DNA of 61,408 nucleotides from positions 1-61,408 of the IMG/VR virus record IMGVR_UViG_3300049214_000177; one strand, written 5' to 3'. The position numbers and the translations under genes are program-made. The notes below the pieces were generated by a model. The model saw nothing but the letters and a program-made list of their open reading frames with translations, was not told the DNA's origin and made no database searches. Shown here piece by piece: positions 11,298 through 56,689 of this stretch. The first letter of the stretch is position 1, and the number at the start of each line of letters is the position of its first letter. This stretch comes from a virus.

Positions 11298-11304
11298 GCG
11301 ATCC

Positions 11305-11571: not shown

Positions 11572-12342
11572 ATGAGCGTCCGGGATCACCAGCGAGCGCG
11601 TCTCTACGAGGAGCGGCCGTCTTTCGACGATCTCGCTGCCGGCCTTCCGGATTTCCCGCTCGATGCCGCGCTCGACGATCCCGACGCGAGCCCCACGCAC
11701 TACGTCGGTGAGTTCGGGGCCGTCGCGCTCGACGACGACATCCCGTGGACGCCGCGAGCGCTCGACGTCGCGCCCGATCTTCCGATCGCGGACGGTCGAC
11801 CGGACCGGTACCACTTCTTCCCGCAGCTCGACGAACCGAAGGGAGCCGACCCGAGATGGATCGTCGACGGCAAATTCGATTACCACGCGAACGACGTCGA
11901 CGAGCGAACCTTGCGGCCGAACTATACGATCGTCGGCAAGGGCGGCGGCTGCGATAGCGGCGGGAAGGCCAAGGCTAAGCGCGGCGGCGGCGGCGAGATG
12001 GCCGGCACGGCGACGGGCGGCATCGTCATTCCCGTGCGCTACGAGGTGCGCGGTCTCACGATCGGCGAGCTCGAATTTTACCACCGGCAGCCCGGCCTTG
12101 CCGTCGAAGTGCTGCGCGATCACGTCGCGGCGACGATCCGGCAGATGATCGCCGACCCGTCGTATCGAGCGGCGGTCGAACCGAAGCCGAAGAACGGGCG
12201 CGCGAAATCATTCGAGGTCTACGGGTTGTCCGAAGCGCACGTGCGCGTGCTCGGGTTCGATCCCGGCTCCGCGCGCACCGCGCTCTCGACGTACGCGCGC
12301 ACGAAAGACGGCGAGCGAATCCGGTATCGTGAGGCCGCGTGA
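11572..12342 (+). CDS. Hypothetical protein (256 aa) downstream of attP
   Basis: ATG 11572 is preceded by GAGGAG. The first 110 residues are acidic and Pro/Asp-rich; a Gly/Lys low-complexity segment (about 125-145) separates them from a C-terminal domain of alternating helices and strands with conserved-looking VRVLGFDPGSARTALS. The C-terminal part could bind nucleic acid or protein, but I do not recognise the family. It is the first rightward gene after attP. Confidence 0.7.
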   Translation: MSVRDHQRARLYEERPSFDDLAAGLPDFPLDAALDDPDASPTHYVGEFGAVALDDDIPWTPRALDVAPDLPIADGRPDRYHFFPQLDEPKGADPRWIVDGKFDYHANDVDERTLRPNYTIVGKGGGCDSGGKAKAKRGGGGEMAGTATGGIVIPVRYEVRGLTIGELEFYHRQPGLAVEVLRDHVAATIRQMIADPSYRAAVEPKPKNGRAKSFEVYGLSEAHVRVLGFDPGSARTALSTYARTKDGERIRYREAA

Positions 12343-23758: not shown

Positions 23759-25786
23759 GTGGCGATTTCGGCCCCGGTGCACACCCCGGCGTCTTCGGGG
23801 TTCTCGACCGCGGGCACGGGCACGAGCCTGTCGATCCCCTGCACGGGTTCGACGAGCGGCAACCAGCTGTACGCGGTCGTCGGCTGGGCCACGACAACGG
23901 GGATCACGGCGACGCCGTCGTCGGGCTGGACGCTGGCCGCGAACACGAGCAATTCTCCGAATAATCAATCGGTCTACACGCGCACGGCGACCGGCTCCGA
24001 TACGCTGACGATCACGTTCTCCGCGAACGTGAATCGTGCAACGATCGTGGCGTTCGAGTATTCCGGCTCCGGCTTGGATCAGGTCGTCTTCAACTCGCCG
24101 TCGCAAAGCACGTCGCAGGCGGGTCCGAGCTGCACGCCCACGGATACAAACTCCGTCTCGCTGTATCTTTTCTGCGCGTTCGACACGTCCCCGACGCTCG
24201 TCGGCGTTGCGACAAATCCGAGCGTCGGCACGTACGTCAACGACGTCTCGGGCGGCACGGCGTCGAGCTACACAATTCAGACGGCGTCGGCGACGTACGC
24301 GAACACCTCGGGTGCCGCGTCGACGATCGTGTGGTCGAGTGCGGCAAACTCGCCGATCAACACGCAGATCGTCCTCGCGCCGCTGGTCACGCAAGCGACG
24401 GGGACGGCGACCGCGAGGCTTGCCGTCACGGCCGCAAAGACGCGGAACGCAACGGCGCAGCTCGGAACGCGCGCCGCGAAGACGGCAACGGCCACAGCCG
24501 ACCTTGCGGCATCGGCGTCGATCTCAAGTAGCGGGTCGGCGGCGGTCTCGAATCCGGCCACCGCGCCCACGCCCGCGAGCGCCACGATCGCGAAGCCCGC
24601 ATCGCAAACGGCATCGGCGTCGGGAACACTCGCGGCGCCAAGCGCCTCTGCGCGTTCGGCATCCGGTGCGATCGCGATACCGGCGACGAAGTCCTCGGGC
24701 GCCGCGGCCACGATCGCGACGCGAAGCGCGGACGGCGTTCCCGCCTCGGCGACGATCGCGCGACCGGCGAGTCAATCTTCGGCAGCGACGGCGCGCCTTG
24801 CGGCCTCCGCGACGTCGCCAACGCCCGCGACCGGCGCGCTCTCTTTGCCCGCGGCAAAGCCGTCTGGGGCGACGGCGACCCTCTCGACCTTGGGAGCGGA
24901 TGCGATCCCGGCGTCCGCGAGCGTCGCGCGCACCGCGAGCCAATCCGCGACTGCGACCACTAGGCTTTCCGCGGCGGCCGCAGCGACATCCCCCGCAAGC
25001 GCCGATCTCGCCACGCCGTCGAACAACAGCGCCTCGGCGTCCGCACGGCTCACGAAATCCGCATCGCAGCCTGCGGGCGCGTCTGCGACGATCGCGGCAA
25101 AAGCGAACGCGTCGAGCCCGGCGAGCGCGGCTCTGCGCGCGAGCGCCACGCAGGCATCCGGCGCGACCGCAGCCCTTGCAAAGAGCGGCGCTGCCCCGGT
25201 CGGCGCAAGCGCGGATATCTCGACGCCGGCTGCGGCAAGCACGACGGCGAGCGCGCGTCTCTCGCTGCACGGATCGGTCCCGCGCGGCGCGTCGGCAGCC
25301 GTCGCTGATCCGGCGTCGATCGGAACCGGCGCGTCGGCCGACATCTCCAAACCCGCCGCTCTGGTGTCGGGCGCCGCAGCGCGCCTTTCCGTTCCCGCAG
25401 GCGTCTCCGCTTCCGCGTCCGGCGCGATCGCAGCTCGGTCGGCGCGTGGATCCGGTGCCGCGCTGACGATCGCGCGCCCGGCGCAAGCCACGCTCTCGGC
25501 AAGCGCGCATCTCGCTCGCGTGGCGCTGTTCGCGGCGCTTGCGACCGGAGCACTCTCGCTCCCGGCCGCAGCAGATGCGAACGCGAGCGCGACGATCGCA
25601 CGTCCGGCCGGTGTCGCGGTCGGCGCGTCGTTCGTGCTGCTCGAGGTCGCGGGTCGCGTCACGTGCGGCATCGCGGTGACGCAGCCGCTCATTTCGCTTG
25701 GCATCGTGGCGGACCAAGCTGTGACGATCGCGACGCCGATCGCGGCGAATCCGACGACCTCGATCGTGCTACCCGTAGGAGCGTGA
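23759..25786 (+). CDS. Beta-module plus 29 x 14-residue repeat protein
   Basis: This 675-residue protein starts at GTG 23759 with GGAGGG upstream. Residues about 10-212 form a beta-sandwich of the same kind as five domains in the giant protein at 40480 (GNQLYAVVGW, PSSGWTLA, FEYSGSGLDQ). Residues 219-624 are 29 consecutive 14-residue units without a single insertion or deletion, consensus A-x-[L/I/V]-[A/S]-x-x-A-x-x-x-x-x-A-[S/T]. The last 51 residues are a hydrophobic cap. The composition is Ala/Ser/Thr with few charges. It lies between head and tail genes, so a virion fibre or decoration with a repetitive shaft is the best guess. I know of no named family for the repeat. Confidence 0.8.
   Translation: MAISAPVHTPASSGFSTAGTGTSLSIPCTGSTSGNQLYAVVGWATTTGITATPSSGWTLAANTSNSPNNQSVYTRTATGSDTLTITFSANVNRATIVAFEYSGSGLDQVVFNSPSQSTSQAGPSCTPTDTNSVSLYLFCAFDTSPTLVGVATNPSVGTYVNDVSGGTASSYTIQTASATYANTSGAASTIVWSSAANSPINTQIVLAPLVTQATGTATARLAVTAAKTRNATAQLGTRAAKTATATADLAASASISSSGSAAVSNPATAPTPASATIAKPASQTASASGTLAAPSASARSASGAIAIPATKSSGAAATIATRSADGVPASATIARPASQSSAATARLAASATSPTPATGALSLPAAKPSGATATLSTLGADAIPASASVARTASQSATATTRLSAAAAATSPASADLATPSNNSASASARLTKSASQPAGASATIAAKANASSPASAALRASATQASGATAALAKSGAAPVGASADISTPAAASTTASARLSLHGSVPRGASAAVADPASIGTGASADISKPAALVSGAAARLSVPAGVSASASGAIAARSARGSGAALTIARPAQATLSASAHLARVALFAALATGALSLPAAADANASATIARPAGVAVGASFVLLEVAGRVTCGIAVTQPLISLGIVADQAVTIATPIAANPTTSIVLPVGA
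24413..25630 (+). repeat. 29 tandem 42-bp (14-codon) units
   Basis: The DNA encoding residues 219-624 of the 675-residue protein is divisible into 29 in-phase 42-bp units. The units are diverged at DNA level (for example ATIARPASQSSAAT versus ADISTPAAASTTAS), which argues for long selection on the repeat fold rather than recent expansion. Confidence 0.8.
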
Positions 25787-37309: not shown

Positions 37310-38524
37310 GTGGCGTTCTTAACGCAGCTCACCCGCGCACAGCTTCGCTCGATCGCGGTCGACGCGTACAACGCGGGCGCGACGATCCCCGCAGCGACCG
37401 ATGCCGGTTCCTCGTTCGGATCAACGTTCGACGGCCTCTCGCTGATGGCGATGGAGCTGCAGCGGCAGATCGCCTACAACGTCGCGATTGACCGGCTCTC
37501 GACGATCATCCCGAACGCGGACGGTTCGCCGAACCCCGACGTCGATTCGTATTGCGCGCCGTTCAATGTGCTCCGCGGCGGCACGCAGTACGCGAGTGGC
37601 TCGGTCACGCTCTCGGCGCCGTCGCCCGTCACGAGCAACCTCATCATCCCGGTCGGCGGGATCGTCACGACGCAGAGCGGCCTCCAATTTGCGATCGTCC
37701 CCGATACGAATCAGTCCGCGTTCAACGCGGTCGACAACGGCTACGTGCTCGCGACCGGGCAAACGTCCGTCACCGTCACGGTGAAGTGCCTCACGGGCGG
37801 TACGATCGGCAACGTCCAAGCGGGCCAGATCCAAAATCTCTACGGCGGCCCCGGTGCGATTGTCATCTCCGGGATCACGACGGTCAGCAACCCCGGTGCG
37901 TTCACCAACGGCTCGGCGTACGAATCCGACGCAGCGTACATCGCGCGTTTCGCGCTCGCCGTCTCGACGGGCCGCACCGCGACGTACAGCGCACTCGGCG
38001 CCGCGATTCTTGCGCTCCAGACGGGCCTCACGTACTCGATCGGCGATCGTCTCAACGCGGACGGCTCGGCGCACGCTGCGTACTTCACCGCGGTCGTCGC
38101 CGAACTCGGACAGAGCGGCGCGACGTCGCCGTCGCTACTCGCCGCGGCACGAACCGCGCTCGAGGGCAATCCCGCCGCAGGCATTCCGCCGGTGCGCGGG
38201 ATCGGCATCTCGTATCAGGTCATCTCGCCGACGATTCTGACGGTCACGCCGAGTGCGACGATCGCCGCCGCGCCGGGCTACACGAAATCGATCGTCCAGA
38301 GCAACGCTGCCGCGGCATACGTGTCACTCGTTGAAGCGATCGGACTCGACCCGCAAGGGAATCCCACCGTCCTTCCGTACGGCCAGGTGTACGCAACGCT
38401 CTACGGCATTCCGGGTGTGCTTCGCGTCGATTACCTCGCGCTCAACGGCGCAGAGAACGCCGACATTTCGGCGGGATTCGGCGTTTTGCTCGCCCCCGGT
38501 ACGCCCGCGTTCACGATGGCGTAA
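37310..38524 (+). CDS. Baseplate J-like protein
   Basis: GTG 37310 has GGAGG at the proper spacing; GTG 37301 would overlap the ribosome site. The 404-residue protein matches the baseplate J family: DGLSLMAMELQRQIAYNVAID, SVTLSAPSPV, CLTGGTIGNVQAGQIQ, ESDAAYIARFALA. It forms the wedge around the hub together with gp25- and I-like proteins. Confidence 0.85.
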   Translation: MAFLTQLTRAQLRSIAVDAYNAGATIPAATDAGSSFGSTFDGLSLMAMELQRQIAYNVAIDRLSTIIPNADGSPNPDVDSYCAPFNVLRGGTQYASGSVTLSAPSPVTSNLIIPVGGIVTTQSGLQFAIVPDTNQSAFNAVDNGYVLATGQTSVTVTVKCLTGGTIGNVQAGQIQNLYGGPGAIVISGITTVSNPGAFTNGSAYESDAAYIARFALAVSTGRTATYSALGAAILALQTGLTYSIGDRLNADGSAHAAYFTAVVAELGQSGATSPSLLAAARTALEGNPAAGIPPVRGIGISYQVISPTILTVTPSATIAAAPGYTKSIVQSNAAAAYVSLVEAIGLDPQGNPTVLPYGQVYATLYGIPGVLRVDYLALNGAENADISAGFGVLLAPGTPAFTMA

Positions 38525-39479: not shown

Positions 39480-40424
39480 ATGGGCTTTCTCGTTCCGACG
39501 ATTCCGGATACGGTTCTTCCGCCTCCCGTTCCGGGCCAAGAAGTCGACGCGGCCGACTGGACCACGCTGCAGGACAACATCGATGCGGCCAGAGCGCAGG
39601 TGCTGCTCGCCGTCTGTGGATCGGCGAACGCGAATCTCCCCTTTACGCCGTTCAGCATTACGGCGCGCGGCGGATTCTATCTCTCACCTCTGCAGTTCGT
39701 TCTCGAAGACAACAGCGACGGATCGTACGGCATCGTCATCGGCGGACCGAACAACGCCGTATTTTGCCAAGGGCTCTTCCTCGACCAGTGCGGCGCACAG
39801 ACGTTCCGCATGGGCTATCCGCCGAACGGCCAGACGCAGCTCGACGCGATCTACATTCAGGCGATCCGGCATCCGGGTCCGAACCCCGTGACGATCAACC
39901 GGAAAATCCGTTCCGCGACCGTCGCGAGTTTCGTGTCGACGATGGTCGTGCAGCTGCAGAACGGAACGGCGACTGTCGTCTTCCCGTCAACGTATCTCTC
40001 AACGCCGCAGGTTTTTGCTCAGGCCATCACCGGCAGCTCGATCGCGGCGGCCGAGGCGCCGATCACCGTGTCGAATCGCACGACGACCGGGTGTGTCGTC
40101 ACGAGCAGCGATCCAACCGACGCACGGACGATCGAGCTCGAAATCACGGGCGACGTCGTGCAGTACGACGGCGTCGCGACGAACATCGAGCTCAACGTGT
40201 CGTCGCCGACGATCGTGGTGGTTGCCGGGACGCCGGTGCCGATCGGGCAGACGCCGGCGGTGTCGCCGCCACCGAACGACGGCACGAATTACGAGCTGTT
40301 TGCGACGGTTCTGAACACGCTGCAAAACAACTTGAGCACGGTCGTCGGCACGTACAAATTCCCGACGATCGTACCGCCGATCACGTTTACGAGCCCGGCC
40401 GTCTCGGTCATCACCGGCCCCTAA
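39480..40424 (+). CDS. Tail fibre or appendage protein
   Basis: This 314-residue protein lies at the end of the tail operon and is almost entirely beta-structured, with a Pro/Val N-terminus and Thr/Val/Pro-rich C-terminal half. Such sequences are common in baseplate-proximal fibres and receptor-binding proteins. It directly precedes the giant hydrolase gene. The exact role is inferred. Confidence 0.65.
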   Translation: MGFLVPTIPDTVLPPPVPGQEVDAADWTTLQDNIDAARAQVLLAVCGSANANLPFTPFSITARGGFYLSPLQFVLEDNSDGSYGIVIGGPNNAVFCQGLFLDQCGAQTFRMGYPPNGQTQLDAIYIQAIRHPGPNPVTINRKIRSATVASFVSTMVVQLQNGTATVVFPSTYLSTPQVFAQAITGSSIAAAEAPITVSNRTTTGCVVTSSDPTDARTIELEITGDVVQYDGVATNIELNVSSPTIVVVAGTPVPIGQTPAVSPPPNDGTNYELFATVLNTLQNNLSTVVGTYKFPTIVPPITFTSPAVSVITGP

Positions 40425-40479: not shown

Positions 40480-43400
40480 ATGCACGCTCGGCAACGCGCG
40501 TTTCTTTTGCTATGCGCGCTCATCGTGATGCTCTGCGGCATCGGCACGAGTCGATACGCACCCGCAACGGCCGGAGCACCCCCGACGCGCCCGCCCGCAC
40601 CCTCGCCGACGCCGTACGTGCTGCCCTCGGGATACTGTTACGCGTACGTGACGTTCCCGACCGTCACGATCGTCTACACGCAGCCGACGTCCGGTTCGTA
40701 CGTTCGCATCGTGCTCCCGTGCCAGGGTTCTCCGACGTCGTCGCCGTCGATCGCGCCATCCGTCGCACCGAGCGCCTCGGCCTCCGCAAGTGTTGCTCCC
40801 TCCGCGAGCGCTTCGGCCAGCGTGCCGCCGACGTCAACGCCAACGCCCGTACCGTTGCCAAGCGCTTCGGGGCTGCTCATTCCGCCCGCCGGGCAGATCT
40901 ATCTCGGCGCGCGCGTCAATCCCGGGAGCGCCTGCTCGAATACCAATCCATCATGTCTCGACACTGCGATCAAAACGCTCGAATCGTCGATCGGACGCAC
41001 GCTCTCGATCGCGAGCTCGTTCTTCTCGTGGTCGAATCTCGGCGCCACCTTCCCGACGTCCCTCGAAACCGACGACGTCACGACCGGCCGCTATCCGGTC
41101 CTCGCGTGGGATTGCGCATATTCCGACGCGTCGGTTGCCGCGGGCTCGCACGACGTCGACATCGACTCGGCCGCGCGCGCGATCAAAGCGTACGACCATC
41201 CGGTTTTCGTGCGGTGGTTCTGGGAATTCAATCTCCCGAACACGGCGAACAATCGTGCGTCGTCGTGCTACAACCCCGGCGTCGGTCCGGCCGATCCCAC
41301 GGCCGACGGCGTCAACAGCCCGGACAATCTGACCAACCCGGGTGAGGTGCCCGCGAACTTCTTCAGCCCGAAAAATTTCGTTGCGGCGTGGCAGCACATC
41401 CATGCGCGCTTCGTCGCCGACGGCGTGACGAACGTCATCTGGGTGTGGTGCCCGGGTAACGGCACGGCCGGCCCCGCGATCAACTACTACTACCCCGGCG
41501 ACACGTATGTCGATTGGCTCGGCTACGACGCGTACGATACGGCTGGTTCGCCGACCGCGACGTATCTCGCGACGCCGTACCAGAAGATCACGGGCGTTAC
41601 GTCCGGCAAGCCGATCATCTTCACCGAGACGGGCGTTCCGGCGGCGAACCAGGTGTCGGTCTTCGCCGCGACCGCGACGACGCTGCAGCAGATGTTCCCG
41701 CTCATCCGCGGTTACGTGTATTTCGACGCGAGCGGTCCGGCGGGATCGTGGTCGTTCTCGACGAGCACGCCGCCGCCGAACGGCCTGACCGCGTTCACGA
41801 CGCTCGCGGGCACGTCGTATCTCGGCGCTCCGGGCCCGTCTCCGAACGCAACGGGTCTGCCCACGCCGACCCCGACGCCGACCCAGGCTCCCACGGCCAC
41901 GCCGAGCCCCACCGCGACGCCCACGGCCACGCCGACGAATACGCCGACCGCGTCGCCGAGCCCGAGCCCGAGCGCGAGCGCGACGGCCACCGCAACGGCC
42001 ACGGCAACCGCTACGGCCACGGCGACCGCCACGGCCAGCGCGAGCCCGAGCGCAAGCCCGTCTCCCACGGTTTCGCCCGCCGTCCTCAAGACGGGTGCCC
42101 CGTTCCTCGATGCGTCCGCGACCGGTTCGCAATCGGTCGTGATCCCGATCTCCGCGACGATCGGCGACACGCTGATCTACGCGGCCGCGTACTCAACCGT
42201 CGGCGCGACGCGCACCGTCACCGCTCCGAGCGGCTGGACGCCGTTCGTCAACTGCCAAAACAAGACCAACGGGAACGTCGGCATCGCGCCGTTCCAGCAC
42301 GTGGTCGCCTCGGGCGATCCCGGCTCGACGGTCACGTTCACGGTAACGACAACCGGCACGTCCTTGCCGTCCTCGGGCGTGCTGTACGACATCGGCAACG
42401 GCGGCACGACGACATCGACGTATCTCGCGGGTGCGGCCCCCACGACGCCGGGCGCGCTCGTCGGCTCGGGAATCTCCGGTGCTTCGACCGCCGTATTCCT
42501 CGCCTTCTACGGCGTTGCGGACGGTACGTCGGCAGGCGACGTCACGCCGGTTTCCGTTACGGTCCCCTTCGGTTCCGCAGTCGTTGCCGAGCCCGCGACG
42601 ACGACGATGATCGGCACGTCCGCCACGAACACGGGCGGTGCGTCGATCACGCCGGGCGCGACGGTCGGCACGTACGCGCAAACGTACGTCGCGTGCACGG
42701 TGCGCGTGGCGAGCGCTTCCGCACCGACGCCGTCGCCGTCACCCTCCGCAACGGCGAGCCCGACCGCGACGCCGTCGCCGACCGCGAGCCCCACGGCGAC
42801 GCCGACGGCTACCGCCACGCCCACGAGCACGGCAACGCCGACCACGGCGCCGACGAGCACGCCGACGCCGACGATCCCCGGCATCGCCGCGCCACCGATC
42901 GCGGGCTCGAACGCGATCTCGCGCGCTCAGAACCTCGTCGACTCGATCGGCATGAACACGCATCTCACCGCGGGCGACATCTACGCGTCGACGTCGACCG
43001 TCGAAGCGATGCTCGCGCTCACGGGCGTGCGCCACATCCGCGACGGCGAGCACGTCTCGACGTCGATCATGTCGGCGCTCTATCTCACCAACGGCGCGAA
43101 GCTCGACGCAATCATCGACGGTAGCTCCACGACCTCAACCGTGACGACCGCGCTCTCGCCGTTGCAGAACTACCTCGACGGCGCCGAGGACGTCAACGAG
43201 TGCGACATCTCGGGCATCCAAGGCTGCACGACCTCGAACTACTACTCGGTCGAAGCGACGACGCTCGAAGCCGCATATCCGGCGGTAAAAGGTCTGTCGA
43301 CGGGCTTCTTCATGCTCGGGCCCGCGAACACGTCGCAAGCCGCATACGCTGCGGTCGCGTGCGATGGTCCGGCCGGTAGCTGTACGCAGACGCCCGGCTA

Positions 43401-46400
43401 TCTCTATCCGGCGTATCTCGACGCGTGCAACATGCACGACTACGTGAACAACTACCGCGAAGAGAATAGCGGGTTCGGCGGCTACATCGGCAGCCCGATC
43501 AACGCCACGTACGGCACGCTGCTCTACAACATCAACAATTCACTTCAGGTCTGCGGCGGTCCCGGTGCGCCGATCGTCTCGACCGAATACGGCTGGGGCG
43601 ATTACGGCGGCGTCGATTCGGGCAACGACTCCGTCGGTCAATCCGTCTCACCCGCGGTCAAAGCGGATTACGTCGGATCATCGTTCCTTTTCGGTTGGTC
43701 GCAAGGCGTCTCGCGATCGTACTATTTTCAACTCGCCGACGATGGAACGCCCGGCAACGCGGGCGTGACGCCGGGATACGGCGCGCACGGCGTGTTCGAT
43801 ACGACGGGTGCCGCGAAGCCGGCTGCCGTCGAGATCGGCAATCTCACGCGCCTCTTCTCGGATAGCGGCTCGACCGCCAACACGTTCGCGGCGACCGATT
43901 CCGTCGGCGTGTCGCTGGCCGATCCGAGCGGCATGCACCATCTCCTTGTCCAAAAATCGGACGGCAGCGAGTGGCTCGCGTACTGGAACGGCTGCAGCGA
44001 GTGGAACGTCAACACGAACGCGCCGCAGTCGTGCTCGCCGATCTCGACGGCGACCGCCACGTTCACGCATGCGCCGACGAGCGTTGCGCTTTGGACAATC
44101 AACCAAAACGGCGACGGCAAGATGACGACCGCGAGCGTTGCGCCCGCATCGTCGATCACGCTGACGTACGAGCCGTACATCCAAGTGCTGCAGCTCAACG
44201 CGTCGAGCGCCGTGACGCCGGTCGTCGCGCCGACGCCGACGAGCGGCCCGACGACGACGCCCGCTCCGACCGCAACGCCGACGACCCCACCGAACACGAC
44301 GGGCTCCGGTACCGTCTCGTACGTCCAATCGAATTCGCTCGACGGCAACACGGCGAATTACAACATCACGCTCGCCGCGACGCCGTCCGCGGGCGATGCG
44401 CTGCTCTCGTACGCGGCGCTCGCGACCGGACGCGCTCTCGCGTCGACGACGCCGGGCGCGCTCGCATCGACCGCGACGGGCTACCTGCTCAACACGTACG
44501 CGGGATCGAACGGCGAAGTGGTGTCGTTCGAAGGCGGGATCGTTCCGAGCTCGCCGCCGGCGACGTACAACGTGCAGACCTCGGGCGGATTCGCCTGGGG
44601 CACCGATGCGATCGCCGAATACACGAACGTCGATCAGACGACGCCGTTCTCATTCGTCGGCACCGGCACGACGGGTACGGGTCCGGAGGCGATCGGCTTC
44701 CCGGCGGTGAGCATCTACCGCACGGGATCGATGGTCGAGTGCGCCGTCATGGTCAACGTCGGCGGCGCGACGAATAACGACTTCGTGTCGAGCCCGACGC
44801 CGCCGAGCGGCTGGGCGTTCGATACGATCAACTACGCGGGCTCGAATCAGGCGCTCTTCGCGATGCACACCACGGGTGCGCCCGCACAAGGCTCGCTCTC
44901 GATCCCGACGATCAACGTCGAGACCAACACGTACAACGTGTGGGACTCGAATTGCGTCGTGATCCAGCCGCCGCTTTCGGTTCTGCCGTCGCCGACGCCG
45001 AGCCCGACGAGCACGGCCACGAGCACGCCGACCCCGTCCCCTTCTCCGTCCGCCACCGCCACCGCAACCGCAACCGCGACGGCAACGCCGACTCCGACGC
45101 CGACGCCGACGGCCACGGCAACCGCCACGGCTACGGCGACGGCCACCGCCACCCCGACTCCGACGGCCACGCCGACGATCGCGGCACTCTTCACGAAGAT
45201 CGCAAACGGCAACTCATCGGCGCCGCAGGCATCGACCTCGCTCACGATGTCCGGCAATTACGCGAACACGACGCTCTACGTCATCGCAGCCGGCGCGACC
45301 TCATCGGCGAGCCTCACGTCGAACTCGACCGGATTCACGCTCGTCGGAAGCTCACCGCCCCAGGCGGCAAACGGATTCGTCGTCTACTCGATCCCATCCA
45401 ACGGCGGCGAAACGTACACGTTCACGGTCACCGGTCCGACGACGAACATCAGCCTTTCCGCGTACGAGACGAATATGACCGTGCAAGACGCACAGTCGTA
45501 TATCGACTCGACGGTTATCTCGGCAGGGCCGCTCACGCCGTCCGTCGCGAACGATTTCGCCTGGTTCTTCGGCTCGTACACGGCTCCCACGACGACCGCA
45601 CAAGCTCCGGCGTGCACGCCGCAATCCGGATGGACTCCGGTCTACGCGTTCGTCGGCCCGACGCCGACCGTGACGAGCTCGCCCGACGTCGCCTTCGAAA
45701 CGCAAACGCTCGCGAACGTGCCGATCGCGGCGACGACGGGATCGTGCACGCTCTCGAGCGCGCTGACCGGATCGGCCGGCCTCGTACTCTTCAAGACCAC
45801 CTCGCTCGCATCGCCAGCGCCGACGCCCACCCCCGCACCGACGGCGTCGAACGCGCCGACCGTCTTCCAGACGCCGGGCTCCGATAACACGTTCACGACC
45901 GCGGGCGGTGCAAACGGCACGCTCCCGGCCACGACGACCGCGGGCCACACGCTCCTCGCCTTTGCGGTCGGCTCGAGCCTCACCGCGCCCGTCGGCTGGA
46001 ACAACGGCATCACGGGCAGCGGCACGCAGCTCTCCGTGTTCTGGTGCTACGTCGGCACGGGTCTCGGGCAGTGCGCTCCCGCATCGACCTGGAACTTCGG
46101 CGGATCGTCTGCGGGCGGCATCGTGCGCGTCGTGGAATACGCGGGCGTTCTCGGCGCACCGATCTTCCCCGCGGCGACGTCGATCTCGCTAGCGAGCGGC
46201 AGCGATACGCTCACGCCGTCGCTAAACATCCCGGGCACGAACGGCCTCACGATCCTCGCGGACGGCGCGACGGAAACCGGAACCGCAACGATCACCTCGT
46301 TCAACGATTCGTTCGTCGGCGGGTATTCGGATGTGTCCGGCGATTCGAACCGAAACAAGTCGCTCTCGACGGGCAACATCGATTCGCTGCGGATCGATTA

Positions 46401-49400
46401 TGTGACGGGTGACGCGCACGCCGGAACGCAGCCGTTCACCGTCACGCAGACGACGACGGCGAGCGCGAGCGGCATCGCGATCAGCCCGTACCTGATCTTC
46501 CTTTCGGGTGCGTCGACCGTCCCGGCACCGAGCGCGACGCCGGTGCCCACGGCGACGCCGACGCCGGTACCCACGGCCACGCCGACCGCGTCGCCGACTC
46601 CGCTACCGCAAGCGACGATGCCGTACACGGTGATGCTCGGCCAGGATTTCGCGTGTGGATCGAGCTCAAACGGCTCGCTCGCGAATCCGACGGCGGCGAG
46701 TCCCTCGCTCAACCCGAGTGCCGCGCCGGCGCTCAACGGCACGCATCCGATCATCATCGTCGACGAAAACGCGGGCGCGCAGACGACGCCGTACGCGCCG
46801 AGCTGCACGGCGCCACCCGCGTGGGGTGCGCAATATCTGCTGCGGTTCGCGTCGTACGCCGATCTGCAATCGGCCGCGACGACGCCCGGCGTCATTCCGA
46901 CGACGTCACCGGGCGTGCCGCTTTTCAAATACGTGATGTACGACAACGAAGTGAACACGCAGCCCTCGACGCCGCCGAGCGAGCTTCCGTCGGTCGGATC
47001 TAACTCCGTTCCCGCGTACTATTACTACGAAGCCTCACAAGCCGTCGCGGCTTTGCCCGGGTCGCCGATCTTCATCGCGACGGCCGGACTCTCGGGCACG
47101 ACGACGCAAAATAACGAGCTCTGGGCGACGGCCGGATACTGGGGTGCGTGGGACGCGCAATCGCAGACCGCCGGCTCATCGGTTTCGAATTGGAGCAGCT
47201 CGTGGGGCGCGAACGTCGCGAATCTTTTCGCGTACAACACGTCGCTTCAGGTGTTCCTCGGCGTCGGCCAAGTGCTGAGCGGCGGCACCGAAGCGACGCA
47301 GGCGCAACTCGATGCGGTAATGGCCGCCGTTCCGCCGAATTTCCGCGGCGTCTGGATAAATCTCGGGCAACAAACGGTCGGCAGCAATCCGCCCGTCACG
47401 ATCCCGAATGCGTATGGCCTCGGAGCGCAAGCGATCGTCGACACGGCAAACGCGGGCGTATCCGCGACGCCATACCCGATCCCGACATCGACCACGGCCG
47501 CGACGCCACCGCCAGCGCCGACCCCCACGCCTCCGGCTACGCCGACGCCCGCGCCGACGCCGACCGCGACCGCGACCGCAACGGCCACGCCGACGCCGTC
47601 GCCGACCGGCACGATCGCAGGCGTCGCTCCGGCGACGCTCTGCATCGGTCAGCCGAACGGTCCCGCGCTCACGTACAATCTCGTCTACGACGACGAATTC
47701 GCAAACGATACGAGTCTCAACACCGGTACGCCGACAGCGGGCGCGTTCAACGTGAGCGATACCACGAACGTCGCGCCCGTTTCAGTCAGCGCGGGGAGCT
47801 CGCCGAACGGATCTGCGTACCAGCAGGTCGTGTGGAGCACGTGCTACTGGTCTTTCGGGTGCACGAACGAGGGCCTCGACGGATCGGACGACTCGCGCTA
47901 TCTCAAGCGTACCGAAGTCGCGAGCATTCAGGCGAATCACGGTTCGACGCGCTATCCCGACGTGATCGCGCTTGTGCCTGGCACCGGATTGCAGATCAAG
48001 GCATATCCGGCGAGCGGCGTTGGATCAAACACGTACTCGACGACGAGCTCGACGTACACATTCAACTCGTCGACGATCACCCTGGCAGCCGTTCCGTCAC
48101 CGATCGCGACCGGAGATACACTCTTCATCCGCGGCGACGGCAACGAACCGACCGTCGCGAGCGTCTCCGGCAACACCGTCACGCTCTTGACCGAGAACGT
48201 CTCGACGACGACCTCCGCATCGTACACGTCCGGCGCGACGACGATCACCGTCGCGAGCGCGTCCGGCATCGTCGCATCGAATTCGACGAAGGCGCAAATC
48301 TCAGGTGATGGCGCGTCGCCGACCGTCGTCTCGGTGTCCGGCAACACGGTCACGCTCGACGAAGGCTTCAACTCGAACCATGCGAGCGGCGCGACGATCA
48401 CGTTCGTCGCGAACGCGTTCACGGGCCCGGGTTATAACTCGAGCTATCCGTCGGGTACGACCGTATCGGATATTCCGGCTGACGTGCAGACGATCATGTG
48501 CCACGCGGGCGGTTACGAGATCGGCTGCCGCCACAACGTTGCAGCACTGATCGATGCTGGAGATCAGACCGCAAAACGGCAAGGCTATTGGGTCTGGTCC
48601 GCGATGATTCCTGACGGATCGTCGTCGCTTCCCGGATACTGGCCTTCGGACTGGGAAAATTGCGAAGGCAACGGCTGCACCGGCGGCAACACGCTCTATC
48701 AAGAGCACGACAATTTCGAGGTCTTTTCGACCGTCGAAGGCGAGGGAAGCGGCCACCAGACGATCCAGCCCGAGAACGGTGAATACTGCCCCGGCGCGGG
48801 CGCCGGCTGCCCGATCTCGGTGCAGCTTGTCGGCCCCGGACCCGTAACCGGGCCGCAGTACAACTTCATGAAGAGCACGACGCTCGCGACGCAGTTCCAT
48901 CAGTACGCGACGATCGGCAACGGCACGTACGCGGGCTTCTGGTTCGACGGCGTTCCGGGCTCGACCGCGATGAACGATGTGCCGGTCGCGACGAACACCT
49001 CGATCCCCGGCCAAAACGCGCTCGCGACGGCACAGACGACCGAGAACGGTGCGGGCTCGCCGACCGTCGCGGGTGAGGCGCCGGGCGTCATCACCGAGCA
49101 ATATTTCCGCTATTACGCAGCGACGACGAACACGTGCAGCACCGTCGCCGTGACGGCCATCCCGCCGAGCCCGAGCCCGCCGCCGACCGTTGCGCCGAGC
49201 GCGGGGCCGTACATGCCGTTCCCGGCGAACGCCGATACGGTTGCGACGGCATCCAACATCGTCGTCACGGCAACCTCGTCGCCCGCGATCGGCGATTATC
49301 AGGTCGCGCACATCGTGAGCAACGCCGGAGGCGGGGGCTCAGGGCCGAGCGGATGGACCGCCGCGATCCCACCTGCGAACGGTCAGCATCTCGCGGTGTG

Positions 49401-49923
49401 GTATTGCCAGGTCGCAACGACCGGCGGCTGCACGCCGTCGACCCATTCGTTCACCTTCACCAGCTCGAACTACGGCGGGGTCGGGCGGCTCGAGACGTGG
49501 CGCAATCTCACGGGGCCACCGGTCGGCGGTAGCGTGGGAAGCGCGACGTTCCCGGGGGGTCAGTCGACCACGCAAGCGCAGCAGGTCGTCGCATCGCTCG
49601 TCATCCCGTCTGCGGGCGGCGTGACGCTCGTCGATGGCGACGTCGCGAACGTCACGGGAACCGCGACCATCGCCGCAGGCGCGATCGCGGACCTCATGAC
49701 GTGGGGCACGACCGCAACGACAGGCCCGGAAGCGGACGACCTCAACGCGGCCGGCGGTGCCGGTGCGCTTTGGTCGCTGCATGAAGCGCAGGTCGTTCAA
49801 GACGCGTTCCTGACGGAAGTTTCGACGTTCGGCGACGCGCTTTACGATCAAGGCAACATCACGGTGCCGCAGACCGCGAGCAACGGCTTTGCGAACGATC
49901 GTGCGTTCGTGTTCCTCCCGTGA
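40480..49923 (+). CDS. Giant secreted multi-domain glycoside hydrolase (3147 aa)
   Basis: ATG 40480 follows AGGAG. Residues 1-32 look like a Sec signal peptide (LLLCALIVMLCGIG), then a Pro/Ser linker. Domains: 131-450 GH26-like barrel with WFWEFN (Glu249, acid/base) and IFTETG (Glu383, nucleophile); 808-1240 clan-A-type barrel with VNE (Glu907) and VSTEYGW (Glu1036); 2047-2326 a further barrel-like domain (YVMYDNEV, GVWINLG) of uncertain activity; 2385-2893 a GH16-like jelly roll with ExDxxE (Glu2742, Asp2744, Glu2747) holding an inserted tandem beta repeat (about 2525-2647). Five beta-sandwich modules (about 534-747, 1278-1502, 1568-1778, 1796-2012, 2911-3147) alternate with Pro/Thr/Ser/Ala linkers. 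It probably degrades complex polysaccharide outside the cell. A signal peptide is odd for a virion protein, so it may be secreted. Domain families are assigned by motif only. Confidence 0.85.
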   Translation: MHARQRAFLLLCALIVMLCGIGTSRYAPATAGAPPTRPPAPSPTPYVLPSGYCYAYVTFPTVTIVYTQPTSGSYVRIVLPCQGSPTSSPSIAPSVAPSASASASVAPSASASASVPPTSTPTPVPLPSASGLLIPPAGQIYLGARVNPGSACSNTNPSCLDTAIKTLESSIGRTLSIASSFFSWSNLGATFPTSLETDDVTTGRYPVLAWDCAYSDASVAAGSHDVDIDSAARAIKAYDHPVFVRWFWEFNLPNTANNRASSCYNPGVGPADPTADGVNSPDNLTNPGEVPANFFSPKNFVAAWQHIHARFVADGVTNVIWVWCPGNGTAGPAINYYYPGDTYVDWLGYDAYDTAGSPTATYLATPYQKITGVTSGKPIIFTETGVPAANQVSVFAATATTLQQMFPLIRGYVYFDASGPAGSWSFSTSTPPPNGLTAFTTLAGTSYLGAPGPSPNATGLPTPTPTPTQAPTATPSPTATPTATPTNTPTASPSPSPSASATATATATATATATATATASASPSASPSPTVSPAVLKTGAPFLDASATGSQSVVIPISATIGDTLIYAAAYSTVGATRTVTAPSGWTPFVNCQNKTNGNVGIAPFQHVVASGDPGSTVTFTVTTTGTSLPSSGVLYDIGNGGTTTSTYLAGAAPTTPGALVGSGISGASTAVFLAFYGVADGTSAGDVTPVSVTVPFGSAVVAEPATTTMIGTSATNTGGASITPGATVGTYAQTYVACTVRVASASAPTPSPSPSATASPTATPSPTASPTATPTATATPTSTATPTTAPTSTPTPTIPGIAAPPIAGSNAISRAQNLVDSIGMNTHLTAGDIYASTSTVEAMLALTGVRHIRDGEHVSTSIMSALYLTNGAKLDAIIDGSSTTSTVTTALSPLQNYLDGAEDVNECDISGIQGCTTSNYYSVEATTLEAAYPAVKGLSTGFFMLGPANTSQAAYAAVACDGPAGSCTQTPGYLYPAYLDACNMHDYVNNYREENSGFGGYIGSPINATYGTLLYNINNSLQVCGGPGAPIVSTEYGWGDYGGVDSGNDSVGQSVSPAVKADYVGSSFLFGWSQGVSRSYYFQLADDGTPGNAGVTPGYGAHGVFDTTGAAKPAAVEIGNLTRLFSDSGSTANTFAATDSVGVSLADPSGMHHLLVQKSDGSEWLAYWNGCSEWNVNTNAPQSCSPISTATATFTHAPTSVALWTINQNGDGKMTTASVAPASSITLTYEPYIQVLQLNASSAVTPVVAPTPTSGPTTTPAPTATPTTPPNTTGSGTVSYVQSNSLDGNTANYNITLAATPSAGDALLSYAALATGRALASTTPGALASTATGYLLNTYAGSNGEVVSFEGGIVPSSPPATYNVQTSGGFAWGTDAIAEYTNVDQTTPFSFVGTGTTGTGPEAIGFPAVSIYRTGSMVECAVMVNVGGATNNDFVSSPTPPSGWAFDTINYAGSNQALFAMHTTGAPAQGSLSIPTINVETNTYNVWDSNCVVIQPPLSVLPSPTPSPTSTATSTPTPSPSPSATATATATATATPTPTPTPTATATATATATATATPTPTATPTIAALFTKIANGNSSAPQASTSLTMSGNYANTTLYVIAAGATSSASLTSNSTGFTLVGSSPPQAANGFVVYSIPSNGGETYTFTVTGPTTNISLSAYETNMTVQDAQSYIDSTVISAGPLTPSVANDFAWFFGSYTAPTTTAQAPACTPQSGWTPVYAFVGPTPTVTSSPDVAFETQTLANVPIAATTGSCTLSSALTGSAGLVLFKTTSLASPAPTPTPAPTASNAPTVFQTPGSDNTFTTAGGANGTLPATTTAGHTLLAFAVGSSLTAPVGWNNGITGSGTQLSVFWCYVGTGLGQCAPASTWNFGGSSAGGIVRVVEYAGVLGAPIFPAATSISLASGSDTLTPSLNIPGTNGLTILADGATETGTATITSFNDSFVGGYSDVSGDSNRNKSLSTGNIDSLRIDYVTGDAHAGTQPFTVTQTTTASASGIAISPYLIFLSGASTVPAPSATPVPTATPTPVPTATPTASPTPLPQATMPYTVMLGQDFACGSSSNGSLANPTAASPSLNPSAAPALNGTHPIIIVDENAGAQTTPYAPSCTAPPAWGAQYLLRFASYADLQSAATTPGVIPTTSPGVPLFKYVMYDNEVNTQPSTPPSELPSVGSNSVPAYYYYEASQAVAALPGSPIFIATAGLSGTTTQNNELWATAGYWGAWDAQSQTAGSSVSNWSSSWGANVANLFAYNTSLQVFLGVGQVLSGGTEATQAQLDAVMAAVPPNFRGVWINLGQQTVGSNPPVTIPNAYGLGAQAIVDTANAGVSATPYPIPTSTTAATPPPAPTPTPPATPTPAPTPTATATATATPTPSPTGTIAGVAPATLCIGQPNGPALTYNLVYDDEFANDTSLNTGTPTAGAFNVSDTTNVAPVSVSAGSSPNGSAYQQVVWSTCYWSFGCTNEGLDGSDDSRYLKRTEVASIQANHGSTRYPDVIALVPGTGLQIKAYPASGVGSNTYSTTSSTYTFNSSTITLAAVPSPIATGDTLFIRGDGNEPTVASVSGNTVTLLTENVSTTTSASYTSGATTITVASASGIVASNSTKAQISGDGASPTVVSVSGNTVTLDEGFNSNHASGATITFVANAFTGPGYNSSYPSGTTVSDIPADVQTIMCHAGGYEIGCRHNVAALIDAGDQTAKRQGYWVWSAMIPDGSSSLPGYWPSDWENCEGNGCTGGNTLYQEHDNFEVFSTVEGEGSGHQTIQPENGEYCPGAGAGCPISVQLVGPGPVTGPQYNFMKSTTLATQFHQYATIGNGTYAGFWFDGVPGSTAMNDVPVATNTSIPGQNALATAQTTENGAGSPTVAGEAPGVITEQYFRYYAATTNTCSTVAVTAIPPSPSPPPTVAPSAGPYMPFPANADTVATASNIVVTATSSPAIGDYQVAHIVSNAGGGGSGPSGWTAAIPPANGQHLAVWYCQVATTGGCTPSTHSFTFTSSNYGGVGRLETWRNLTGPPVGGSVGSATFPGGQSTTQAQQVVASLVIPSAGGVTLVDGDVANVTGTATIAAGAIADLMTWGTTATTGPEADDLNAAGGAGALWSLHEAQVVQDAFLTEVSTFGDALYDQGNITVPQTASNGFANDRAFVFLP
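41830..42078 (+). repeat. Low-complexity Pro/Thr and (Ala-Thr)n linker 1 of giant gene
   Basis: This segment encodes Pro-Thr repeats followed by ten consecutive Ala-Thr-type dipeptides, built from CCACGGCNAC-like DNA units. It joins the GH26-like domain to the first beta module and is the longest of the linkers. Confidence 0.75.
42721..42880 (+). repeat. Pro/Thr/Ser linker 2 of giant gene
   Basis: Tandem ACGCCGACG/GCCACGCCC-type units encode a Pro-Thr-Ala-Ser linker between the first beta module and the second barrel. Related, shorter linkers lie at about 44214-44310, 45808-45864, 46516-46617 and 49159-49209. Confidence 0.65.
44986..45180 (+). repeat. Pro/Thr and (Ala-Thr)n linker 4 of giant gene
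   Basis: Pro-Ser-Pro-Thr units followed by two Ala-Thr runs separate two adjacent beta modules. The DNA is close in sequence to linkers 1 and 7, giving several near-identical stretches within one gene. Confidence 0.7.
47461..47625 (+). repeat. Pro/Thr and (Ala-Thr)n linker 7 of giant gene
   Basis: This linker joins the third barrel-like domain to the GH16-like domain and again contains Pro-Thr and Ala-Thr repeats built from the same kind of DNA units. Confidence 0.7.
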
Positions 49924-51777: not shown

Positions 51778-52512
51778 ATGAGCAGCGACTTCAATCCGCT
51801 CGGCTCGTTCGCGATCGATGCGCCGCTCAATCCGAAAGCGCTCTCGGCCGGGATCGCGTTTCGACACACGCTGCCGGTGCTGCCGCCGAACGACGTCGAC
51901 CGCATCTATCTGCACCAGAGCGCCGAAGAATACGGCTGCGTCGACGATGCGTACCATGCGGTCGTGCGGCTCGATACGGCGGTCGCTCCGGACGCGTGGG
52001 AGATCGCGCCGAGCCACGACGTGCACGACAACGCGCGCTCGACGTTCTCGGTCACGGACTATGCCGAGCACACGTACTGCCGCAACGAAGGCGCGGTCGC
52101 GATCGCGCTCGACGGCCTCATCGGTGCGCAGGTCAGCCCGAACGATTTCGGGAGCGAGCCGATCCAGATGCACGAGGTCGAGTTCTTGTGCGCGGGCGCG
52201 GCCGCATTCGCCGTTACGTTTGGGATCGACACGGGCGGTTTTTCGCGGTCGCTCGGTGACGCGCGCTCGAGAGCGTACGTCGGCGAGCCGAACATCCTCA
52301 CGCACGCGGAGGCCGCGAATCTTCCGGGATCACCCGTGCAGTACGCGAGTTACGGGCCCGCTCCGATCGGGACGGTCGAGCGGTGGGATCTCGCGACGCT
52401 GATCGCGGCGCCGGCGGGCGTGCTCGTGACGGCGACGCACGCGTCGATCGTCGGCATCGCGCTGCGCAAACGGATCCATCTCTACGCCGCTGCCATGAAA
52501 GGCGCGCGATGA
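51778..52512 (+). CDS. Probable N-acetylmuramoyl-L-alanine amidase
   Basis: This 244-residue protein resembles the amidase_2/peptidoglycan-recognition fold: IYLHQSA near the start (first zinc His), a HTYCRNEGAVAIALDG segment like the family's GxIGIal core, and EPIQMHEVEFLCAGAAAFAV, the helix following it. The C-terminal ~80 residues are a separate domain. It would cleave the glycan-peptide bond. The match is by pattern only. It overlaps the next gene (ATGA). Confidence 0.55.
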   Translation: MSSDFNPLGSFAIDAPLNPKALSAGIAFRHTLPVLPPNDVDRIYLHQSAEEYGCVDDAYHAVVRLDTAVAPDAWEIAPSHDVHDNARSTFSVTDYAEHTYCRNEGAVAIALDGLIGAQVSPNDFGSEPIQMHEVEFLCAGAAAFAVTFGIDTGGFSRSLGDARSRAYVGEPNILTHAEAANLPGSPVQYASYGPAPIGTVERWDLATLIAAPAGVLVTATHASIVGIALRKRIHLYAAAMKGAR

Positions 52513-53261
52513 AGAATTTCTGGTCGTTCCTCGGGTCGCTCGTTCAGGATTTGTTCGTGATCCTCACACGGCCGACGCCACCGCTCGCGCCGGTCGTGAC
52601 GCCCGCGACGCCGAGCTCGCCCGCGAAGCCCGACGTGCTCGCGACACTCACCCAACTGATCCTCTCGCAGACGGAATCGCTCGGCCCGATGCCCGGGACC
52701 GGAGGCGTGATCCACACGGTGTCGGCAACGACCGCGGCGACGATCGCATCGCTCATCGTCGAGGACGCGCAGCTCTTCGGCATCAAAGTGTCGCTCGTCG
52801 CGTCGCTGATCCGCGGGGAGAGCGATTTCGACCCCGCGGCGATCGACCCGAACGATCAGGATGCGAAGCCCGGCGAGACGGCCGCGCAAGCCGTGGCGCA
52901 CACGGATTTCGGCATCGAACAGGAAGACGGCGCGACGGCGATCGGCGATCCGCAGTTCGCGGGCTTCTCGCTCTCAGCGATCGAGGCGAAGCTCTTGGAT
53001 CCGGTCTACGGCGTCCGGTACGTCGTGCAGACACTCGCGGACAACATCAATTTCGCTCAAGCCGCGTTCGTCGCCGATCCGTCGCTCGCGAAGAAGGTGC
53101 CGAACGGCGATCCGACCGTGCTCGCGTGCGAGGCGTACAACGCGGGCCAGACGGGCGCGCTTCACATCGCGCACACGGCCGGCGCGGTCGCGAGCGCGTG
53201 GGCGTACGGCCTCGGCGTCGTGACGCGGGCCGCTACGTGGTCCCCCTTACTCGACGTCTAG
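52509..53261 (+). CDS. Lytic transglycosylase (SLT-like)
   Basis: From ATG 52509 this is a 250-residue protein with an N-terminal hydrophobic/Pro-rich segment and an SLT domain (about 85-235). The catalytic Glu104 lies in IRGESDFDP, with DFGIEQ and CEAYNAGQ as the later family motifs. It would cut glycan strands. It is either a lysis enzyme or a virion-associated muramidase. Confidence 0.75.
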   Translation: MKNFWSFLGSLVQDLFVILTRPTPPLAPVVTPATPSSPAKPDVLATLTQLILSQTESLGPMPGTGGVIHTVSATTAATIASLIVEDAQLFGIKVSLVASLIRGESDFDPAAIDPNDQDAKPGETAAQAVAHTDFGIEQEDGATAIGDPQFAGFSLSAIEAKLLDPVYGVRYVVQTLADNINFAQAAFVADPSLAKKVPNGDPTVLACEAYNAGQTGALHIAHTAGAVASAWAYGLGVVTRAATWSPLLDV

Positions 53262-53271
53262 GAGTTTTCGC

Positions 53272-54066
53272 GTGAGATATTACGGTCGAAAAGACGGCAT
53301 CAGCCGTCATTTTTCGTTGCGCCCGTTCGAGCCCGAAGCGAAAACGTCGCTACCGGTTTCGGTGAGTTACGAAAGCTACGCGCCCCCGGTGTTCAACCAG
53401 GGCGCGTACGGAACGTGCGTCGCGAACGCGACGGCGTCGGTCCAGATGCTCTACGCGAAAAAGCGCGGCCGCGCCGTCGGCACGATCTCGCGATCGGCGA
53501 TCTATTCGCAGGCGAAGCATTCGTACGAGCCCACGGACATCGCGGACGACGGCTTGATGGTCACGGACGGCTTGTTGGTGCCGAAAAACTTCGGCTACGT
53601 CATCGAGCCCGACTGGCCGTACCCGAGCGACCCGAGCGGCCGGAACACGGGCGATCTGCTGCTGCCCGTGCCCGCTACGCTGTGGAACGTGTCGTTCGAG
53701 GAAGCGTCGTACCTCGCGGTCGACACGTCGAGCGTCGAGACGATGATGCGCGCGCTCGACGCCCACGGTCCGTGCATCATCGGCCTATCGTTCGCCCTTG
53801 AATGGGAAGGCATCGGCCCCGACGGCTTCATGAATCCGGCGATCGCGAAGACCGCCGCCGGCGGCCATTGCATCTACATCCTCGGCTTCGATCGGAATCA
53901 CTTCGGCGGCGCGTTTCGCATCCGGAACTCCTGGGGCCCCGAATGGGGCGCGAACGGCGACGGCTGGCTGCCGTTCGATGCCCTCACGACGTGCCCGTCG
54001 TTCTGGCCCTCCGAATGCTACACGGTCTCGTTCCCGCCGTCTGCCGCGGCGGTCGGCGCTTCGTGA
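53272..54066 (+). CDS. Papain-like (C1A) cysteine protease
   Basis: This 264-residue protein starts at GTG 53272. All C1 catalytic elements are visible: FNQGAYGTCVANA (oxyanion Gln43, nucleophile Cys49), GGHCIYILGFD (His199) and IRNSWGPEWGANGDGW (Asn219). There is no propeptide or obvious signal peptide. Papain-like proteases are uncommon in phages; here the gene lies in the lysis cassette and overlaps a membrane-protein gene. It may process virion proteins or attack host surface proteins. Confidence 0.85.
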   Translation: MRYYGRKDGISRHFSLRPFEPEAKTSLPVSVSYESYAPPVFNQGAYGTCVANATASVQMLYAKKRGRAVGTISRSAIYSQAKHSYEPTDIADDGLMVTDGLLVPKNFGYVIEPDWPYPSDPSGRNTGDLLLPVPATLWNVSFEEASYLAVDTSSVETMMRALDAHGPCIIGLSFALEWEGIGPDGFMNPAIAKTAAGGHCIYILGFDRNHFGGAFRIRNSWGPEWGANGDGWLPFDALTTCPSFWPSECYTVSFPPSAAAVGAS

Positions 54067-55389: not shown

Positions 55390-55613
55390 GCTTCGTCCCC
55401 GCCGTCGAGCCACGATTGGCCGTGAAGGTGACGCAGATCGAACGGCGTGTGCGCGGCCCGATACGCGGACTCGATCTCTTCGACGAAGCGGTCCGCGAAC
55501 ATCTTGGCCTCGCATCGCGCGTGGAACGCAACGTGACCGTATCGCTCGACGTTAGCGACGAGCGGCTGCGAGGATCGCCCGCAGGCGGGACAGGTGCCGG
55601 TCACGGGCGTCAT
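55386..55613 (-). CDS. Small zinc-finger protein (75 aa)
   Basis: ATG 55613 overlaps the acyltransferase stop (ATGA). The protein begins MTPVTGTCPACGRSSQPLVA and has an HARCE motif later, giving CxxC...HxxC zinc ligands, then a helical tail ending in an His-rich segment. The function is unknown. Confidence 0.65.
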   Translation of the reverse strand: MTPVTGTCPACGRSSQPLVANVERYGHVAFHARCEAKMFADRFVEEIESAYRAAHTPFDLRHLHGQSWLDGGDEA

Positions 55614-56689
55614 GTCGGCACCGCTTTTCGAGCGATGAGCGGCCGCCACGTTTTCGCGCGCCGTAGGATCGGACGTTCGATGAGATACGTCACGGCGGTC
55701 GAGATCGCAAACGTGACGGGCCATCCGATCGCAATCTGCGCGACGCCACCGATGCCGTGGTCTCGTAGCCAGATGAGCACGATCGTGTGCCAGAGATAGA
55801 CGTTGTACGAGATCACCGAGACGAACGAGAGCGCCGGGTTCGCGATCGCACGTCGTAGCCAGGGACTCGAAAAACAAGCCGACGCCATCGTCGACGCGGC
55901 CGCGAGCCCGAACCACGTGCGGCCGGCGACGAACCAGCCGAACGCGGCCATGTCGGCACTGCGCATGATGCCGATGATCGCAAAGACCTGGACGATCGTG
56001 AGGTACGCGCACCACGGTGCCCACCGCGCGCTCCTCTGCGCATAATCGTCTCGCGACTGCAAGAGCGCAACGAGATACGCCGAGAGCATCCCGGCCGCGA
56101 AGAGATCGAGGTACGACGGGAGCTCGCGCATGACGCTCTCGGTCGCGACGCAGCAGGGCGCTTCGGCGTAGCGGTACGCGAGCGCCGTCATGGTCATCGC
56201 GACGGCCGTCACGATCGGTTCGCGGCGAAACACGGGCGCGATGAGCGGGAAAAGCACGTAGAACTGCACCTCGATCGCCAGGCTCCAGAACACCGAGATG
56301 GTCGGTCCGAATCCGTCGACGAACGCGTTCTGCGTAAAGGTGAGGTGCGCGACGAGGTTCGTCGCAATCTCGCCGGGCCCGAGGTAGCTGACGGCCACGA
56401 TCGCAACGACGCCAAGCGTGATGAGGTAGCTCGGAAGAATCTTCGCGGCTCGCGCGATCGCGAACGCCCATACGGTCGGAGGCGGTTCGTTCGCAAGCGC
56501 GGCGCGCGCATGCGGCAAGAATAAGCAGAAGCCGCTGATGACGAAGAACAGATCGACGCCGAGGTTCCCGGTGCGGGCGATGACGCCGAACGGTTCGGGC
56601 GGCATGACGCCGGAAAAAATGGCGGTGTGGAACGCGAGTACGAGCAGGACGGCGAGCCCGCGAAAGCCGTTGATCGGTGCGGTCGTCAT
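55610..56689 (-). CDS. Acyltransferase 3 family membrane O-acyltransferase
   Basis: This 359-residue protein has about ten hydrophobic segments and the acyltransferase_3 signatures: FRGLAVLLVLAFHTAIF (Arg10, His21) and GVDLFFVISGF. Enzymes of this family (OafA-like) transfer acetyl or other acyl groups to surface glycans across the inner membrane. In phages they change O-antigen or capsule and so block re-infection (serotype conversion). Lying near the end of the early operon with coupled neighbours, it is probably expressed early. Its substrate is unknown. Confidence 0.9.
   Translation of the reverse strand: MTTAPINGFRGLAVLLVLAFHTAIFSGVMPPEPFGVIARTGNLGVDLFFVISGFCLFLPHARAALANEPPPTVWAFAIARAAKILPSYLITLGVVAIVAVSYLGPGEIATNLVAHLTFTQNAFVDGFGPTISVFWSLAIEVQFYVLFPLIAPVFRREPIVTAVAMTMTALAYRYAEAPCCVATESVMRELPSYLDLFAAGMLSAYLVALLQSRDDYAQRSARWAPWCAYLTIVQVFAIIGIMRSADMAAFGWFVAGRTWFGLAAASTMASACFSSPWLRRAIANPALSFVSVISYNVYLWHTIVLIWLRDHGIGGVAQIAIGWPVTFAISTAVTYLIERPILRRAKTWRPLIARKAVPT

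Follow-up and report, generated by a model that had tools for sequence, protein, structure and literature searches.

What a tailed phage would gain from a single gene of more than 9 kb, encoding several putative glycoside hydrolase domains behind a signal peptide, is the question raised by this locus. The window analysed here is the whole IMG/VR record IMGVR_UViG_3300049214_000177 (61,408 bp), which comes from an environmental metagenome. It contains the tailed-phage genes terminase (phrog_2), tape measure (phrog_1272) and baseplate J (phrog_6). The features outside the giant gene to which we refer below are the following.

10227-11297, + strand: tyrosine integrase (Pfam PF00589, 1.6e-28)
about 11344-11390, - strand: tRNA-Gly(TCC)-like 3' half, probable attP by sequence, ~47 bp past the integrase stop
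23759-25786, + strand: 675-aa protein, a virion protein by position
37310..38524, + strand: baseplate J-like wedge protein upstream of the giant gene (phrog_6, 2.3e-30; Komagataeibacter phage phiKX1, 9e-18)
39480..40424, + strand: 314-aa gene just upstream of the giant gene, probably tail-fibre-like by position
52509..53261, + strand: candidate SLT-type transglycosylase of the lysis module, downstream (PF01464, 0.0019, under the curated cut-off)
53362..54066, + strand: papain-family peptidase in the presumed lysis region, downstream (PF00112, 3.1e-7; phrog_16701, 4e-12)
55610-56689, - strand: membrane acyltransferase near the giant gene (PF01757, 2.8e-28)

The tyrosine integrase and the adjacent tRNA half, which resembles the E. 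coli gene for tRNA-Gly(TCC), point to a probable attP and thus to a temperate phage with a predictable integration site. We regard the source phage as temperate and myovirus-like. A sheath-like gene at 28035 has one relative, with 50% identity, in another viral contig, and a DnaB helicase lies near the end of the window opposite the downstream side of the giant gene. The acyltransferase is a candidate lysogenic-conversion O-acetyltransferase. In the 675-aa protein, the middle and C-terminal parts are homologous to each other (hhalign, 1.3e-9) and carry Ala/Ser/Thr-rich repeats. The ends of the window (1 and 61408) carry no terminal repeat. Across the joined ends runs a minus-strand open frame of 108 codons whose beginning resembles a zinc finger (MNCKACGEGPFNGPQAVAKHRLAAH), which suggests, without proving it, that the record covers almost all of a permuted genome. 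As to the host, a scan of genomes with the GH26 domain gave only distant matches in Sorangium and Chitinivibrionales; searches with the integrase, acyltransferase and baseplate proteins gave weak and mixed hints.

The giant ORF runs uninterrupted from the ATG at 40480 to the stop at 49923, within the late tail cluster, and has the ribosome binding site AGGAG 6-7 bases 5' of its start codon. When the window was shuffled 30 times (Markov-2), no stretch free of stops exceeded 848 codons, against 3147 in the giant gene. Its codon usage follows that of the phage tail genes (r = 0.98), and a single 300-bp block, which falls in a Pro/Thr linker, prefers another frame. No perfect tandem array was found in the gene, the linker repeats being about 63-92% alike. 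With the frame intact over 9.4 kb and the codon usage phage-like throughout, an assembly artefact was rejected, and the single uninterrupted gene of the original prediction stands. Viral genes occur on both sides of it, without host metabolic genes, which is the context that marks a virus-encoded glycoside hydrolase with high confidence: terminase, tape measure and baseplate J are upstream, and the PHROG-matching peptidase is downstream. The gene had also been placed right after the tail fibre. The 314-aa gene does end 55 bp upstream, but it is probably fibre-like by position, with no family match in PHROG and Pfam searches. The 55-bp gap has no terminator-like site, which points to late expression of the giant gene. 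Its parts are as follows.

40480..49923, + strand: gene for a 3147-aa multi-domain, probably exported glycoside hydrolase
40480..40572, + strand: Sec-type signal peptide, aa 1-31, probable cleavage between ATA and G (site chosen by eye)
40870..41830, + strand: Domain 1, GH26 barrel, aa ~131-450, acid/base E249, nucleophile E383
42062..42714, + strand: module M1, aa ~528-745, predicted beta-rich, between Pro/Thr linkers
42880..44214, + strand: Domain 2, PslG/GH39-like clan-A barrel with C-terminal beta domain, aa ~801-1245, acid/base E907, nucleophile E1036
44302..44979, + strand: module M2, aa ~1275-1500, linker-bounded
45181..45849, + strand: module M3, aa ~1568-1790, linker-bounded
45832..46524, + strand: module M4, aa ~1785-2015, homologous to M5
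46600..47455, + strand: Domain 3, barrel-like by eye, aa ~2041-2325, YDNE at 2153-2156
47620..49149, + strand: Domain 4, possible GH16-like sandwich, aa ~2381-2890, motif E2742-x-D2744-x-x-E2747
48031-48420, + strand: beta-repeat insert inside the GH16-like domain, aa 2518-2647
49132..49923, + strand: module M5, C-terminal, aa ~2885-3147, homologous to M4

The N-terminus of the protein (MHARQR-AFLLLCALIVMLCGIG-TSRYAPATA) has two Arg residues, an 11-residue stretch with a mean hydropathy of 3.34, and then A-T-A. By a simple hydropathy score, which is not SignalP, it has the highest signal-peptide-like value among the large soluble proteins of the window, in agreement with the signal peptide predicted earlier. 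The Pro/Thr linkers were likewise found: seven linkers rich in Pro, Thr and Ala divide the protein into domains. The residues proposed as catalytic, E249, E383, E907, E1036, E2742, D2744 and E2747, are all present at these positions.

Domain 1 matched the GH26 model PF02156 with 31.4 bits, above the cut-off of 20.2. Against PDB sequences it matched CtLic26A (1.6e-10), with E249 aligned to the RPLHE motif of Lic26A. When Domain 1 is aligned with three further members of GH26, of which phage GX15bay supplies two, R245, E249 and E383 are invariant. The membership of Domain 1 in GH26 is thus confirmed at the level of sequence, with Glu249 and Glu383 as its predicted catalytic pair. As a single-domain query against viral contigs, Domain 1 found no relatives. 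Phage GX15bay (MK557849.1, mangrove soil) carries two adjacent GH26 genes at 8441-10888 among several glycosyltransferase genes.

Domain 2 alone had no match in Pfam, the GH39 model included. A tblastn search found plasmid-borne proteins of Granulicella (29%, 2e-21) and Roseomonas. N906-E907 (in ExxNE) and T1035-E1036 are invariant across the 7 sequences of the Domain 2 alignment. When profiles of Domain 2 were compared with solved structures, PslG came first (8.3e-8 to 2e-8), followed by the GH39 enzyme 5jvk (2.6e-7). E276 of PslG presumably lies opposite E1036, counted on the profile alignment with an assumed construct offset. An AlphaFold model of Domain 2 built on six phage sequences was of low confidence (pLDDT 47, pTM 0.53). 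In the PDB its best three matches were all PslG (1.7e-10 to 4.3e-10), and behind these came a beta-glucuronidase and enzymes of GH30 and GH39. Among predicted viral structures its best match was a Caudovirales protein (5.5e-14). The profile and fold comparisons draw on overlapping alignments and are different kinds of comparison, and their rankings agree. Sequence and model together confirm the clan-A barrel with Glu907 and Glu1036 of the original prediction, and Domain 2 is a predicted hydrolase of this clan with PslG (GH39-like) as its nearest known enzyme.

A search of viral contigs with the single Domain 2 sequence found none with such a domain. With the Domain 2 alignment as query, three contigs with PslG-like domains appeared in the viral collection. 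One (L011) encodes a 749-aa protein with a signal peptide, close to genes for a major head protein and a tail fibre; another (L010) encodes a 423-aa protein with a shorter signal-peptide-like N-terminus, near a phage primase. The third, L009 (IMGVR_UViG_3300046706_000011, 7526-12313), encodes a 1595-aa protein that lacks a leader and carries three PslG-like domains in tandem; its gene is located between tail-fibre and tailspike genes. The leaderless form and tail-gene setting of this protein suggest that a virion-bound version of the PslG-like domain probably exists. In its third copy the N-E acid/base motif is gone, as seen by eye, and this may be a binding copy. The PslG-like domain is accordingly a recurrent and rare phage enzyme, with forms predicted to be exported and tail-borne, the four proteins being too few for a rule. 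Tail depolymerases had been said normally to carry one catalytic domain and no signal peptide; the L009 protein, with its three domains in a tail cluster, calls for a caveat to the view that multi-domain phage enzymes are unusual.

Domain 3, which had been proposed as a fourth barrel-like domain, looks like a barrel by eye; searches of Pfam, NCBIfam and PDB gave nothing for it, and neither did phages, plasmids or 284 Sorangium-phylum genomes. Neither Domain 3 nor the GH16-like domain found relatives among viral contigs as single queries. In Domain 4 the motif reads E2742-H-D2744-N-F-E2747, with H and N where hydrophobic residues are usual. Compared by hhalign with 12 GH16 proteins from Sorangium-phylum genomes, Domain 4 aligned over 112 columns with its E/D/E on the GH16 motif at E = 0.15, and 0/300 shuffles equalled both this score and this length. 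Searches of Pfam, NCBIfam and PDB sequences gave no GH16 match for Domain 4, the last also after removal of the insert, and a search of the phylum of Chitinivibrionales gave no match at all. A single-sequence model had a pLDDT of 31 and was unusable for judging a jelly-roll fold. We regard GH16 as plausible for Domain 4 and leave the domain unassigned: the positions of Glu2742, Asp2744 and Glu2747 and the motif register speak for the earlier assignment, while the Pfam and PDB results and the E value speak against it. The one genomic match of Domain 4 is to its inserted beta repeat, not to the catalytic part; over 75 residues, a portion of this insert shares 37% identity with an open frame in a Sorangium-phylum genome (L012).

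Five beta-sandwich modules had also been described. M4 and M5 are the only pair demonstrably homologous (hhalign, P = 3e-6, probability 88%). M1, M2 and M3 had no homolog (for M1, in Pfam, NCBIfam and PHROGs), and the sandwich fold of all five modules is a prediction. A link between the beta modules and the N-terminus of the 675-aa protein was considered and dropped, as hhalign gave it no support.

We consider it probable that the product of the giant gene is an exported, modular endo-hydrolase of polysaccharide which is expressed late and loosens the host matrix. Transcription would take place in the late phase along with that of the tail genes, and the protein would leave the cytoplasm via Sec, the signal peptide arguing for export rather than tail assembly. 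Predicted export is supported by this signal peptide and by the signal-peptide-bearing relatives in other phage contigs. The enzyme might reach the surface or the medium through host secretion or at lysis. GH26 and the PslG/GH39-like families point to endo-cleavage of beta-linked glucan- or mannan-like polymers; an exopolysaccharide of this type would be cut around the infected cell and its neighbours, and progeny would spread. With the GH16-like domain and Domain 3 the enzyme would cut a broader set of linkages, and the repeated beta-rich modules would bind polysaccharide, with the catalytic domains on flexible Pro/Thr linkers. The free or surface-attached polysaccharide-degrading enzyme originally envisaged is thus backed by two domains that are real relatives of glycoside hydrolases and by the export signal, its other two catalytic domains being candidates. 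Both uses offered for it, clearing of exopolysaccharide and benefit to the lysogen, fit the resemblance to PslG, the place of the gene in the late operon and a temperate lifestyle, and both the substrate and the party that benefits are our inference.

Among the alternatives, the one with most weight, though rather unlikely in our judgement, is that the gene serves the lysogen as a lysogenic-conversion or auxiliary metabolic gene, the host feeding on or moving through soil or plant polysaccharide such as mannan or beta-glucan. Secreted bacterial CAZymes likewise combine a signal peptide with Pro/Thr linkers. The integrase and the tRNA-Gly-like attP mark the phage as temperate, and a conversion-type acyltransferase gene lies near the giant gene. 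Soil viruses are moreover known to encode hydrolases of plant polymers, including an active endomannanase (PMC6786970). Against a service to the lysogen, the giant gene is co-directional with the late structural cluster, following closely on a tail-region gene with no terminator-like site between, and a scan for sigma-70 promoters found none near its start.

Less likely still is a depolymerase bound to the virion, that is, a receptor- or matrix-degrading appendage on the tail. The position of the gene straight after the baseplate and fibre-like genes, taken with the leaderless L009 protein among tail-fibre and tailspike genes, makes attachment possible. A canonical signal peptide, however, would take the protein out of the cytoplasm, where tails assemble; none of its domains matches the PHROGs tail families, and it has no recognisable tail-attachment domain. 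We give very little credence to the view that the gene is decayed or chimeric cargo of no use to the phage, joined to it from a bacterial gene cluster by assembly error or recent acquisition. The best relatives of Domain 2 in annotated collections are indeed bacterial plasmid genes (Granulicella, Roseomonas), and the sole relative of the phage backbone (L002) stops short of the giant-gene region. The phage-matching codon usage along the whole intact frame, the conserved catalytic residues and the phage genes on both flanks all stand against it. Exported matrix clearing ranks ahead of a service to the lysogen, and this ahead of attachment to the virion.

A wider proposal, which we put forward tentatively and hold to be somewhat doubtful, is that exported multi-catalytic matrix-clearing enzymes are a recurrent phage strategy distinct from virion-bound depolymerases, with PslG-like domains switching between exported forms (the window, L010, L011) and a tail-borne form (L009). 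As the giant gene suggests, large matrix-clearing enzymes may in some phages be exported and not only mounted on the virion. If so, 15% of a phage genome would be spent on one exported enzyme attacking polysaccharide by several chemistries, phage depolymerase biology would extend beyond the particle, and phages would be direct remodellers of biofilm and soil matrix. The PslG-like and GH26 domains are a set available for trials on bacterial exopolysaccharides.

Viral glycoside hydrolases are already known as a kind. A soil viral GH5 endomannanase is active and is a single-family gene (PMC6786970), and a soil viral chitosanase is also known (PMC9485262); like the giant gene, both are virus-encoded with viral genes on both sides. 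The giant protein differs from the GH5 enzyme in having two confirmed and possibly four catalytic domains and a signal peptide. In a limited search of the literature and phage records, no single phage protein combined two or more unrelated catalytic domains with a signal peptide and a length above 3000 residues. Domain 1 has the fold family and both catalytic Glu residues in common with GH26 endo-glucanases, mannanases and xylanases such as Lic26A of Clostridium thermocellum, but it is phage-carried and fused to other catalytic domains, and its specificity is not predictable. The L009 triple protein is likewise phage-borne and of the same domain family as Domain 2, but has tandem copies, lacks a signal peptide and lies among tail-fibre and tailspike genes. 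WceF of Pantoea is a biofilm-modifying bacterial enzyme with a tailspike-like fold (PMC7949094). It and the giant protein both illustrate the overlap of host biofilm enzymes and phage enzymes from opposite sides, WceF being a bacterial enzyme with a phage-like fold and the giant gene a phage gene with domains like those of host biofilm enzymes. The closest comparison is PslG of Pseudomonas aeruginosa (PDB 5bx9, 4zn2, 9g17), the top profile and fold match of Domain 2. PslG has a signal peptide, disperses biofilms and uses E165 and E276 as its catalytic residues (PMC7237758). Domain 2 and PslG have in common an aligned STE-x-GW nucleophile segment and a barrel followed by a C-terminal beta domain, and PslG and the giant protein both carry a signal peptide. 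However, PslG is a 442-aa single-enzyme host protein, whereas Domain 2, about 14% identical to it, is part of a 3147-aa phage protein.
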